This document shows, one piece after another, positions 12,531 to 24,433 of a stretch of DNA of 38,267 bases. The DNA is from Deltaproteobacteria bacterium (lineage in GTDB: Bacteria > UBA10199 > SPLOWO2-01-44-7): positions 1 through 38,267 of the forward strand of contig JAHFSU010000017.1 of the NCBI GenBank assembly GCA_023265595.1. The letters are read 5' to 3'. The position numbers and the translations under genes were made by a program. A model generated the notes under the pieces. It was not told where the DNA came from and ran no database searches. It worked only from the letters and a program-made list of their open reading frames with translations. Numbering within the stretch: the first letter of the stretch is position 1; every line of letters begins with the position of its first letter.

Positions 12531-13247
12531 TCAGGGTGACCGCGGATAAAGATGTCGCCGCTGCCGGAGGAGATAGGCTTCCTTTTTGGCCTGAAGCAGT
12601 GCCCTCAGTTCCTTCGATCTCTCCAAAACCCAATCGGGATCTCCAATATAATGTTGCCTGGAAAAATTTCTTTTCTTTAAGCCTTCCTTTTCAAGGATGT
12701 CCTCAACGAGACGGCGATAAGCCCGTTGACGCTCCGAATCGCTCTCTCCCAGCCCCAGATAGGAGGGCGCAGGCGTTAGCAAAGGGTCTTCCTTCCCATC
12801 TGCGTAGAAGTGATAAGACGACCACCGGTATTTTTCCGGGTGATCTACTTTTCCTGCCCTGTAGGAATTGAGGTCATGGTAAGTCATGACGGTTAGCATG
12901 GCCCTGTCGGATTGGATGCAAGGGGACTTGAAACGATCCATGACAACCTGTCCTCTCCGTTTCAGTTTCTTATTGATGGTTTTGGCCAGTTGGGAGTTAA
13001 CGACCCTGAAGAGGGCGGAAAAGGCCTCCTTGTTCCCCAATATTTTTCCGGAAAGATGAATGTGGTTGTCCATAAAATGATAGGAGTAGAAACAAATATG
13101 ATATCGGTCTTTATATTTCAGGAGCAGGTCGTAATAGAGCTGTTTGGCCCAATCGTCTTGGATCAGCCATGAGTGATTATGACACTGCCATGTGACATGG
13201 AAGATGGCGCCATCCCAGATGATGGCATAACGTGGAAAAGAGGCCAT
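12531..13247 (-). CDS. REP-associated tyrosine transposase (RAYT, Y1/IS200-like)
   Basis: 238 residues from ATG 13247. The HUH metal-binding motif is seen in FMDNHIHLSGK, and the C-terminal pattern NSYRAGKV followed by KYRWSSYHFY matches the RAYT/Y1 transposase family (related to IS200/IS605 TnpA). These single-copy enzymes cut single-stranded palindromes and are thought to spread REP-type repeats. The gene looks intact, with no flanking terminal repeats recognised and no companion TnpB. It lies between unrelated genes on a region rich in short palindromes. It is the obvious candidate for moving at least one of the repeat families in this window, but that link is inference. The ribosome-binding site is weak. 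Confidence 0.85.
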   Translation of the reverse strand: MASFPRYAIIWDGAIFHVTWQCHNHSWLIQDDWAKQLYYDLLLKYKDRYHICFYSYHFMDNHIHLSGKILGNKEAFSALFRVVNSQLAKTINKKLKRRGQVVMDRFKSPCIQSDRAMLTVMTYHDLNSYRAGKVDHPEKYRWSSYHFYADGKEDPLLTPAPSYLGLGESDSERQRAYRRLVEDILEKEGLKKRNFSRQHYIGDPDWVLERSKELRALLQAKKEAYLLRQRRHLYPRSP

Positions 13248-13519
13248 GGAAGATGGGAAAAGCAAGAACCGTGCCAGCCTCTGTGTGGCATTATTTTGAG
13301 TTGAGTAAGGGGGGTGATTTAATTCCGTCACCTCCCTGCAGCATTTCCGTCCTCCGTCTGGGGGGGGTTCGGGGCTTAACACGACGACAACATAGAGACT
13401 CTTATCTCGACTGGTATTGTCATCTTAAAAATGCTGCCCTTTAGCAACACATTGTGGGTATTATGCCCGCAATGACGCCGTAAACCGTCATCTTGTTTTG
13501 CGCTCGCTATACCATATGC

Positions 13520-22000: not shown

Positions 22001-22051
22001 AACACGGTGCCGAGTATTACCTATCTTACCAAAGTGAGGAACGAAGGATAA
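19004..22051 (+). CDS. actB: ActB: fused molybdopterin-oxidoreductase-like and iron-sulfur subunit of Alternative Complex III
   Basis: 1015 residues, ATG 19004. A twin-arginine signal ([10 protein letters not shown], Arg 46-47) ends at Cys65, a lipobox-like site. The N-terminal 730 residues are molybdopterin-oxidoreductase-like, starting with CGECPAACG. In studied ACIII this half holds no molybdenum. The C-terminal quarter is a ferredoxin-type subunit with cysteine clusters [39 protein letters not shown] and EKCTFC...CQQTCP, predicting up to four Fe-S clusters. A dispersed repeat is translated in frame at about residues 500-540 ([11 protein letters not shown]...), a loop position between the two halves. 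The stop overlaps the actC start (TAATG). Confidence 0.95.
20508..20622 (+). repeat. CCCCTCCC...GGGAGGGG palindromic repeat (family D) in frame within actB
   Basis: Two successive palindromes: CCCCTCCC-ACAA-GGGGAGGGG (about 20525-20545), then CTCCCCCTCCCCTTGAGGGAGAGGG, and a GC-rich tail with CCGCC...GGCGG. Such elements are widespread in proteobacterial genomes, mostly between genes. Here one lies inside actB and is translated as a Pro/Gly/Glu-rich loop without a frameshift or stop. Confidence 0.75.
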
Positions 22052-23427
22052 TGGAAGCCACATTCGAACAAGAGCCGTTGTTAAATCCAAAAAAGACATT
22101 GACCGATGTCAATATCGATGTCTGCAAACCGATGGAGCGTCTCCCGTCTCGGTCGTGGTTTGTCTGTTTTGCCATTGCGGCTTCACTGACCGTTTTTGGT
22201 CTCTGCCTTTTTGTTCATCAGCTTCGAACCGGTATGGGGGTTTGGGGTTTGAACAATCCGGTCGGGTGGGGGATCGATATCACCAACTTTGTTTTTTGGA
22301 TCGGTATCGGTCATGCCGGCACCTTGATTTCAGCCATCCTCTTTTTGTTCCGACAAAAATGGCGGACATCGATCAACCGCTCCGCAGAGGCGATGACGAT
22401 TTTTGCGGTGATGACGGCCGGTCTTTTTCCGATCATCCACTTAGGGAGAAACTGGCTCTTCTTCTGGCTTTTGCCGTTTCCGAATACGCGCGGTTCGCTC
22501 TGGGTCAATTTCCGTTCGCCGCTTCTTTGGGATGTCTTTGCGGTTTCGACCTATTTCACCATTTCACTGGTTTTTTGGTATCTGGGACTCATCCCCGATT
22601 TTGCATCGATTCGCGACAAGGCTAAACATAAAGTTCGCAAATTAGTTTACGGCGTTTTAGCCTTGGGGTGGCAAGGGAAACAGAGCCACTGGAATCATTA
22701 CGAAATCGCCTATCTGATTTTGGCGGGGCTCTCGACGCCGCTTGTTTTGTCAGTCCACTCGATTGTCAGCTTCGATTTTGCCACGTCGGTTTTGCCCGGC
22801 TGGCATACGACAATTTTTCCCCCTTATTTTGTGGCCGGCGCCATTTTTTCCGGTTTTGCCATGGTGGTGACCCTTTTGGTGATCGTTCGAAAAGTTTTTC
22901 AACTCGAAGATTACATCACGATGGTCCATCTCGAAAACATGAACAAGATCATTTTGGCAACCGGTTTGATGGTGGGCTATGCTTACGGTTCCGAATTTTT
23001 CACCGCATGGTACAGCGGCAATATTTATGAGATGTTTACATTCAAAAACAGGGCGCTGGGGCCGTATGCGTGGGCCTACTGGACCATGATCACCTCCAAT
23101 GTGATCGTCCCGCAACTCTTCTGGTTTCGGCGTTTCCGGCGATCCATCCCGGTCATGTTTGTTATTTCGCTGATTGTCAATATCGGGATGTGGTTTGAAC
23201 GCTTCACGATCATCGTGACGTCGCTCCACCGCGATTTTTTGCCGTCGAGCTGGGATATGTACATCCCGCGCTGGGTCGATTGGGGATACACTCTTTTTAG
23301 TTTCGGATTTTTCTTTACCTTCTTTTTATTATTTTGCCGGTTTTTCCCGACGATTGCGATGTCGGAAGTCAAATCGACGATGCATGTCGGCCGAAAAACG
23401 CCGGAAACGGAGGAGTTTGTGTTTTAG
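22051..23427 (+). CDS. actC: ActC: NrfD/PsrC-like quinol-binding membrane subunit of Alternative Complex III
   Basis: 458 residues with about ten membrane helices. Segments such as [32 protein letters not shown] and [12 protein letters not shown] are typical of NrfD-family subunits. ActC binds and oxidises menaquinol or ubiquinol in the inner membrane and hands electrons to ActB. The start overlaps the actB stop by one base. The stop is followed directly by a direct/inverted repeat array and then a four-helix-bundle gene, which interrupts the normal actC-actD order. Confidence 0.93.
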
Positions 23428-23504
23428 GACGCTCGTGCGCTCGGACTCTAGGACTCTCGGACTCTCGTGCGCTCGGACTCTCGGATGCTGGTACGATCGT
23501 TGAG
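23428..23504 (+). repeat. Left arm of inverted-repeat cassette around the four-helix-bundle gene (family E)
   Basis: The block is made of short direct units (CGGACTCT, CTCGTGCGCTCGG) and begins one base after the actC stop. Bases 23451-23475 are the reverse complement of 23873-23897 with one mismatch in 25. The match extends further if an 8-base unit (AGGACTCT) is taken as an insertion in this arm. Confidence 0.85.
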
Positions 23505-23512
23505 GAAAAAAT

Positions 23513-23869
23513 ATGGCAGTCAAAAAATATTTTGATTTGGATGTCTGGAAAAAGTCTATGGAACTTTGTGAAACCGTATACAAAATTACGTCCGAGTTTC
23601 CAAAACAAGAACAATATGGTCTGATATCTCAGTTGAGGAGATGTTTCATATCCATTCCCTCCAATATTGCAGAAGGATTTGTACGGAGACATCCTAAAGA
23701 ATTTAAACAATTTCTTTCGATCGCTCTTTCATCGCTTGCAGAATTAGAAACGCAAATTGCACTTGCGTTTCGATTGGGGTATTTGGTGGAACCGCAAAAT
23801 AAACAGATTTTGGAAAATACGGATCATATTGGCAGAATGATGACAAGACTTTATCAAACACTTGAATAA
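23513..23869 (+). CDS. Four-helix-bundle protein (23S rRNA intervening-sequence protein family)
   Basis: 118 residues with the family's landmarks: DLDVWKKSMELCETVYKITSEFPKQEQYGLISQLRRCFISIPSNIAEGF, then EFKQFLSIALSSLAELETQI and LGYL. This is the S23/TIGR02436-type family, a homopentamer-forming four-helix bundle first seen inside intervening sequences of 23S rRNA genes and related to the Avd protein of diversity-generating retroelements. Its function is not known. Here it is flanked by inverted repeats and lies inside a respiratory operon, between actC and actD, in the same direction. No reverse transcriptase or variable repeat is nearby. Its AT-richer codon use differs by eye from the act genes, consistent with insertion. 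Confidence 0.9.
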   Translation: MAVKKYFDLDVWKKSMELCETVYKITSEFPKQEQYGLISQLRRCFISIPSNIAEGFVRRHPKEFKQFLSIALSSLAELETQIALAFRLGYLVEPQNKQILENTDHIGRMMTRLYQTLE

Positions 23870-23908
23870 CGACGAGCGTACGAGAGTCCGAGAGTCCGAG
23901 CGTACGAG
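23870..23908 (+). repeat. Right arm of inverted-repeat cassette (family E)
   Basis: Starts at the base after the stop of the four-helix-bundle gene and reads CGAGCGTACGAGAGTCCGAG and onward. Bases 23873-23897 match the reverse complement of the left arm in 24 of 25 positions. The actD ATG (23915) lies 6 bases beyond, so the arm covers the place where the actD ribosome-binding site would be. Confidence 0.85.
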
Positions 23909-23914
23909 AAAACG

Positions 23915-24433
23915 ATGAGTAATAAACTTTTAGGCATTGTTGGGTTTTTTAAAGATCCCTACCATCTGTTGCGGGCGGCGAAAGAGGCGCGCGCACGCCA
24001 ATTCAAATTTTGCGATGCGTATACTCCATTTCCTATCCATGGATTGGATACCATTTTGGGACAAAAACGCTCCGTGGTTCCGTGGGTGACACTTGTGATG
24101 GGACTTGCCGGCTGCTTCGGCGGCTTTGGTCTTGAGATTTTCACTTCCGCGATCAGTTGGCCGATTAATGTTGGTGGCAAGCCATTCAATTCATTTCCCG
24201 CCTTCGTGCCGATCGGTTTTGAGTGCACCATTTTGCTCGGAGGCTTGGCTACTTTGGCCGCGCTGTTGATGTTTTGTCGCCTTCCGAATTTCAAATCGTC
24301 CATTTTGAATGAGAGTATTACCGACAACACCTTCGCCCTTTATGTCTCCGCGAAGGAAGAGAGTTTTAGAGAGGATGACGTCAAAAATTTAATGGAAAAA
24401 TGCGGCGCCATTGAAACAAGGATGGTTGGATGA
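23915..24433 (+). CDS. actD: ActD: DUF3341 membrane subunit of Alternative Complex III
   Basis: 172 residues. A conserved DUF3341 N-terminus (LLGIVGFFKDPYHLLRAAKEAR, CDAYTPFPIHGLD) is followed by two membrane helices (about 58-80 and 100-124) and a C-terminal FALYVSAKEESF...GA segment. In ACIII, ActD is a small peripheral/membrane subunit without cofactors. The stop overlaps the actE start (ATGA). Its upstream region is now the right arm of the inserted cassette; a poor GAGAAAACG lies where a ribosome-binding site is expected. Confidence 0.92.
   Translation: MSNKLLGIVGFFKDPYHLLRAAKEARARQFKFCDAYTPFPIHGLDTILGQKRSVVPWVTLVMGLAGCFGGFGLEIFTSAISWPINVGGKPFNSFPAFVPIGFECTILLGGLATLAALLMFCRLPNFKSSILNESITDNTFALYVSAKEESFREDDVKNLMEKCGAIETRMVG

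Follow-up and report, generated by a model that had tools for sequence, protein, structure and literature searches.

An S23-family gene between inverted octamer arrays at an actC-actD junction: a hairpin element that appears to represent a neglected class of mobile DNA

In REP systems (REPtrons), one gene, encoding RAYT (TnpA-REP, a Y1 HUH transposase), lies between inverted copies of a dispersed short palindromic repeat, and Rickettsia palindromic elements are short palindromic inserts that are tolerated in frame in coding genes. Heptamer arrays, GGGAATC in Xanthomonas and GGGGA(C/T)T in Nostoc, are known as orphan repeats (PMC4692102). The intervening sequences (IVSs) of 23S rRNA are a further described system, from which S23 ORFs, inverted ends and the heptamers of the Coxiella arm are already known. 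In the Coxiella burnetii 23S IVS, GACAGAT heptamers occupy the 5' arm in variable copy number, and the stem spans 28 bp (PMC4990558). Genes of this family (IVP) are also found in insertions that CPR bacteria carry in 16S and 23S rRNA (PMC11270868), and the part of PMC3936711 that deals with cas loci records 18 23S_rRNA_IVP genes, often near cas4/cas6, and a co-occurrence with Cas nucleases. XCC0516 is a pentamer of four-helix bundles, as a passage of PMC3936711 relates from a reference that it cites, and the S23 family is related to Avd (PMC10053308).

The element between actC and actD

The window analysed here is a stretch of 38,267 nt (contig JAHFSU010000017.1) from a Deltaproteobacteria bacterium whose 1.87-Mb genome we designate G000. 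A sequence-only reading of the window had placed an S23-family gene within inverted repeats between actC and actD. Both the gene and its frame are present, and the limits proposed for them, 23428-23908, are off by no more than one or two bases (Table 1). The makeup of the arms is a feature beyond that reading: each consists of tandem copies of the 8-nt unit CTCGKRCK. The 5' arm runs GACGCTCG TGCGCTCG GACTCTAG GACTCTCG GACTCTCG TGCGCTCG GACTCTCG GATGCTGG TACGATCG, and the 3' arm, read on the minus strand, runs CTCGTACG CTCGGACT CTCGGACT CTCGTACG CTCG. The 37-nt arms are 89% complementary and so offer the long stem from paired ends that is a feature of IVSs; their ungapped inverted-repeat score is 25, compared with a maximum of 10 over 30 shuffles.

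Table 1. Features of the actC-actD locus, in window coordinates
Feature	Coordinates	Strand	Description
actC	22051..23427	+	Left host gene; NrfD-like subunit of alternative complex III; stop codon 23425-23427; PF03916, 83 bits
5' arm	23428..23499	+	Nine 8-nt units; first base directly after the actC stop
Ribosome-binding-site-like TGAGG	23501..23505	+	Just inside the 5' arm, 7 nt ahead of the S23 start codon (by sequence inspection)
S23/23S_rRNA_IVP four-helix-bundle gene	23513..23869	+	118 aa; PF05635 E=2.6e-39, TIGR02436 E=3.2e-37
3' arm	23872..23908	-	Reverse-complement array, about four and a half units
actD	23915..24433	+	Right host gene; start codon 6 nt past the 3' arm; PF11821, 181 bits; adjoins actC in relatives

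The ORF belongs to the S23 family, scoring 134.1 bits against PF05635 (cut-off 33.8) and 127.1 bits against TIGR02436 (cut-off 24), and its protein has solved relatives in 2gsc and 2rld. In the element of the sister species, GGAGG stands at the position equivalent to TGAGG. The adjacent genes in the Pfam test are respiratory subunits only. The related fold family Avd is reached with 34 bits (PF22296) and 33 bits (NF033474), both below the models' cut-offs, and no reverse transcriptase is annotated among the neighbor genes examined, so the locus does not qualify as a diversity-generating retroelement.

The kinship with rRNA IVSs that the sequence-only reading had drawn holds in both gene family and anatomy, as the Coxiella comparison and the loci of other phyla attest. 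Like the Coxiella IVS, this element pairs complementary ends around one ORF of the S23 family, carries a short-unit array in its 5' arm and is of similar length (~480 nt, as against 428 nt in Coxiella). Unlike an IVS, it lies in a protein operon, between actC and actD rather than inside an rRNA gene; its gene is under purifying selection, and gene-less arms are found genome-wide. With REP/RAYT systems it shares dispersed short palindromes and a cognate gene within inverted copies of them, whereas the gene encodes a non-catalytic-looking PF05635 four-helix bundle instead of a Y1 HUH nuclease, and the repeats are 7-8-nt tandem arrays whose unit varies by element. The arrays resemble STRR, Xanthomonas and Nostoc heptamers in being dispersed 7-nt tandem arrays at operon junctions, often as inverted pairs in Xanthomonas. 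Two in-frame arrays, in valS and rnr, recall the Rickettsia palindromic elements, from which they differ in sequence and in being tied to a gene-bearing element.

Elsewhere in the window there is a weak Y1 transposase match (23 bits; 12531-13382 (-), 12954-13205), the nearest Y1 match, 10 kb from the element and with no array nearby.

Insertion, relocation and dispersed arrays

Orthologues of actC, 60-93% identical, adjoin actD in 16 relatives. The insert is absent from this junction in 15 relatives, namely G002-G004, in which only 4-10 nt lie between the two genes, and 12 more distant genomes; the gene thus separates two normally adjacent genes, as had been proposed together with the comparison of empty junctions. 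In the sister species, G001, the same junction carries a gene-less GGACCAT array that reads into ActD. The G001 copy of the S23 gene, 90% identical, sits in a different operon, at a site that is empty in G000. Solo hairpins of G000 at gatB and mcmA are likewise clean insertions relative to empty sites in G001. Empty sites and differing positions in close relatives are the marks of a mobile element, and both are found here, in line with the mobility that the sequence-only reading had suspected: the S23 hairpin element moves. Comparison of the clean sites by eye showed no target-site duplication; the preference is for junctions of stop and start codons. No transposition event and no catalytic enzyme were identified.

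Between G000 and G001, the S23 copies differ with a pN of 0.068 and a pS of 0.60, giving a dN/dS of ~0.06 that is approximate because synonymous sites are near saturation; as judged by this ratio, the S23 protein is under purifying selection. Its synonymous divergence is equal to that of actC (0.60 vs 0.61) and its dN/dS is like that of actC, so the gene has a long history in this lineage, in which selection has kept it while it changed place.

Units of CTCGKRCK recur at about a dozen further places in G000, mostly as gene-less hairpins of 40-90 nt at operon junctions: rseP/tsaB, tsaB/aromatic lyase, between two aldehyde dehydrogenase genes, between two methylmalonyl-CoA mutase subunits, thiD/thiE, rplV/rpsC, sufS/sufU, gatB and nuoE/nuoD. 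These solo arrays were counted by pattern search. The arrays inside valS and rnr leave both reading frames open throughout. Array sites in valS and an acyl-CoA dehydrogenase gene are common to G000 and G001, with turnover of units on both arms, and at the rnr site G001 carries a different array. In both ValRS (L031) and RNase R (L025) a second repeated peptide, RTTGHGE/TGHGELHR, accompanies the array-encoded one and seems to be an in-frame insertion of another repeat family. At G001 junctions (L242-L270) equivalent to those with CTCGKRCK hairpins in G000, unrelated hairpin repeats (GTCATTGCGAGG.., TGGATTCCGGC..) are often found, indicating that the same junctions collect several repeat families.

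Arms that were common genome-wide repeats with no link to the gene family would have told against the original reading. The arms are indeed dispersed, but they are not unlinked: they are tied to the S23 gene family unit by unit, and the finding survives on that account in a richer form. Among 60 genomes, an S23 gene bears CTCGKRCK arms in two, G000 and G001; CTCGKRCK arrays give 35 and 22 matches there, respectively, besides a few stray one-mismatch matches in two others. GGACCAT arrays give 286, 104 and 277 matches in G001, G002 and G005, whose S23 genes are 62-69% identical and have GGACCAT-type arms, and 0-13 elsewhere; they are near-absent from G000, of the same genus, and from G003 and G004, of the same family. 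GTTCTTG arrays number 35 in G005, which has an S23 gene with GTTCTTG arms, and 0-3 in other genomes; GTTCTTG reads the same reversed, so the backwards control carries no information for this unit. RGAGCKTA is confined to G032 among the 60, where it forms the element's arms and a separate solo hairpin. In four unit families, then, arrays are limited to or strongly concentrated in genomes with a unit-matched S23 gene.

S23 genes and their arms across phyla

The architecture is general across phyla. Our sample comprised 80 named loci spread over numerous bacterial phyla and Methanophagales archaea. In this sample, drawn by one conserved motif and similarity to the query, with arms scored ungapped and relatives represented by draft genomes, 47 of 78 S23 genes had arms above threshold, compared with 8 of 198 control ORFs at the same loci (Fisher p=6e-24), and arms cross-paired between different elements matched in 6 of 390 cases. 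About 40% of the sampled S23 genes thus have no detectable ungapped spanning arms; the FECVPI-type genes (L097, L098 and others) have only an upstream short-repeat hairpin. Most S23 genes in the relatives are flanked by inverted 7- or 8-nt arrays, the unit differing each time and being private to each element. Of 82 elements, 60 have a period of 7, 18 one of 8 and 3 one of 9; their median length is 471 nt, and the 5' arm is G-rich in 82%. Elements lie a median of 9 nt from their neighbor genes; 44 of 63 stand in sense between two co-directional neighbors, and 5 are antisense. The idea that protein and unit have strongly co-evolved across phyla was considered and rejected, the correlation of their similarities being only weak (Mantel rho 0.076, p=0.008), although it is clear within one family.

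The same S23-in-arms architecture is found in 7 of the 8 complete plasmids of named cyanobacteria that were examined, with classic heptamers (TAGGGAG, AGGGAAC, AGGGTGT) as arms and host junctions that include nrdB/nrdA and cas6/cas4. These arms are STRR-type heptamers; the literature that was searched treats STRRs as orphan repeats without a link to S23. Where it describes the IVP genes of cas loci, PMC3936711 says nothing of arms, whereas the S23 genes between cas6 and cas4 here do have arms, which suggests that they arrived by element insertion. The latter genes (L138, L139) lie on plasmids of two cyanobacterial genera, and their heptamer units differ.

The usual home of the element is evidently not rRNA, where none of 60 named loci is situated, so rRNA is not its main niche. 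Targeting to tRNA genes is not general either, since a tRNA gene occurs within a few hundred bases of the S23 gene in just 3 of 60 loci (L049, L056, L060), whose elements sit directly beside or between tRNA genes. No relatives of the element were found in viral contigs. At L036 and L104 (G001:C165 and G005:C143), S23 elements of two genera occupy the same operon junction, which is empty in G000; their arms are unrelated (8-nt CTCGGACT vs 7-nt GTTCTTG) and their proteins only ~50% identical. This junction is either an insertion hotspot or a case of arm replacement.

A possible mechanism and its rivals

The account that we favor takes its start from the anatomy, generality, insertion, relocation, purifying selection and unit concordance observed above. 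On balance, we think it probable that the element represents a class of small, mobile and widespread hairpin elements, in which the S23 protein serves its cognate repeats in the manner of REP/RAYT systems but is unrelated to RAYT. Members would be ~420-580 nt long and consist of a single S23/IVP gene between inverted degenerate arrays of a 7- or 8-nt unit, and bare hairpins or arrays of the matching unit (~40-90 nt) would be their gene-less relatives in the same genome. They would insert between stop and start codons within operons, mostly in sense, so that the S23 gene is probably expressed by read-through from the host operon. To our knowledge, the family has no catalytic residues or enzymatic motif; for this reason we do not take the element to be self-contained, departing here from the sequence-only reading. 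Together with the kinship to Avd and the pentameric four-helix bundles, the same trait makes a nucleic-acid-binding accessory role alongside a host enzyme our best guess. The protein may bind the single-stranded DNA or RNA form of its cognate hairpin and promote the copying or transfer of that hairpin, acting in trans on solo arrays as RAYT transposases do on REPs, with catalysis presumably left to a host nuclease, polymerase or other enzyme. The 23S-rRNA IVSs would be members that landed in rRNA genes and whose arms are cut by RNase III, and the transcribed arms at the present locus may likewise be cut, parting actC from actD mRNA.

Such cutting could also be the whole of the matter, with the insert acting as an intervening sequence that RNase III removes from the actCD mRNA and the gene being a passenger, a view put forward for Coxiella. 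The hairpin that had been foreseen in the mRNA is strongly predicted (501-nt RNA, -160.5 kcal/mol, z -5.8 against 100 dinucleotide shuffles), the sense-strand bias and G-rich 5' arms of the elements agree with a role in RNA, and in Coxiella the IVS is cut by RNase III in vitro, the ORF is decaying and proteomic studies did not identify S23p (PMC4990558). Arm mismatches, however, show no excess of G.U over A.C (55 vs 69, p=0.24), so there is no visible sign that selection acts to keep the arms paired as RNA. The lack of rRNA loci in the sample and the purifying selection on the protein at this locus also speak against this explanation, and RNA cutting would account for neither the dispersed solo arrays nor the movement. 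We judge it unlikely, and find it plausible that RNase III processes the transcribed hairpin as an incidental effect, sparing the host mRNA.

It is similarly improbable, in our estimate, that the hairpins are REP-like repeats which some other enzyme mobilizes, such as a Y1/RAYT-type transposase, with S23 genes as passengers that entered their loops. Y1 transposase relatives do exist in G000 (five) and in most relatives, and hairpin shape and operon-junction placement are like those of REPs and Rickettsia palindromic elements; yet no listed array is near any of the five Y1 genes, G003 has an S23 gene with arms and no Y1 match, the gene that recurs between matched arms across phyla is S23 and not Y1, and it is the S23 arm units that match the dispersed arrays. 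That S23 is instead a regulator or structural factor binding repeats genome-wide (a regulon, or the nucleoid), the repeats having spread by slippage and recombination, seems to us decidedly unlikely. Arrays beside start and stop codons at operon junctions would suit such a factor, as would Xanthomonas and Nostoc heptamer arrays near ORF ends (PMC4692102) and the slippage-like turnover of units at the valS site common to the sister species, but the gene's place inside the arms, its relocation and the clean new insertions at gatB and mcmA would be left unexplained. There is hardly any likelihood, finally, that this is an ordinary intergenic cellular gene whose arms are due to chance or assembly. 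The compared genomes are draft assemblies, but the matching architecture recurs in the complete cyanobacterial plasmids, the genes on either side are intact and share synteny with relatives, and chance arms are ruled out by the shuffles, control ORFs and cross-pairing.

We found no literature that links S23 to dispersed short tandem arrays outside rRNA, in a search whose coverage mostly excluded subscription journals. The S23 hairpin element seems to represent a class of mobile DNA that has been overlooked, of which the rRNA IVS would appear to be one special case. More tentatively, and as a proposal that we hold with less than even confidence, S23 proteins may be sequence-specific mobility or maintenance factors of bacterial and archaeal hairpin elements, with heptamer and octamer arrays (cyanobacterial STRRs, probably Xanthomonas GGGAATC) as their footprints and rRNA IVSs among their special cases; a tie between S23 and the Xanthomonas GGGAATC arrays is a prediction. 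Two old puzzles, where S23-bearing rRNA IVSs originated and how cyanobacteria and other prokaryotes came by their dispersed heptanucleotide repeats, merge in this way into one testable question. If the link is true, a role is found for a 'hypothetical' protein that is very common, the presence of S23 in cas operons is explained by insertion, and a sole gene that encodes a non-enzymatic-looking four-helix bundle points to an undescribed way of moving DNA.

The S23 family also has a second architecture. At L132:1858-2588 and L125:1829-4320, divergent pairs of S23 genes point away from a near-perfect hairpin of 23-26 bp, and at L132 a stretch that contains 6-7-nt arrays lies on both sides of the pair, in direct copies (98% over 105 nt).
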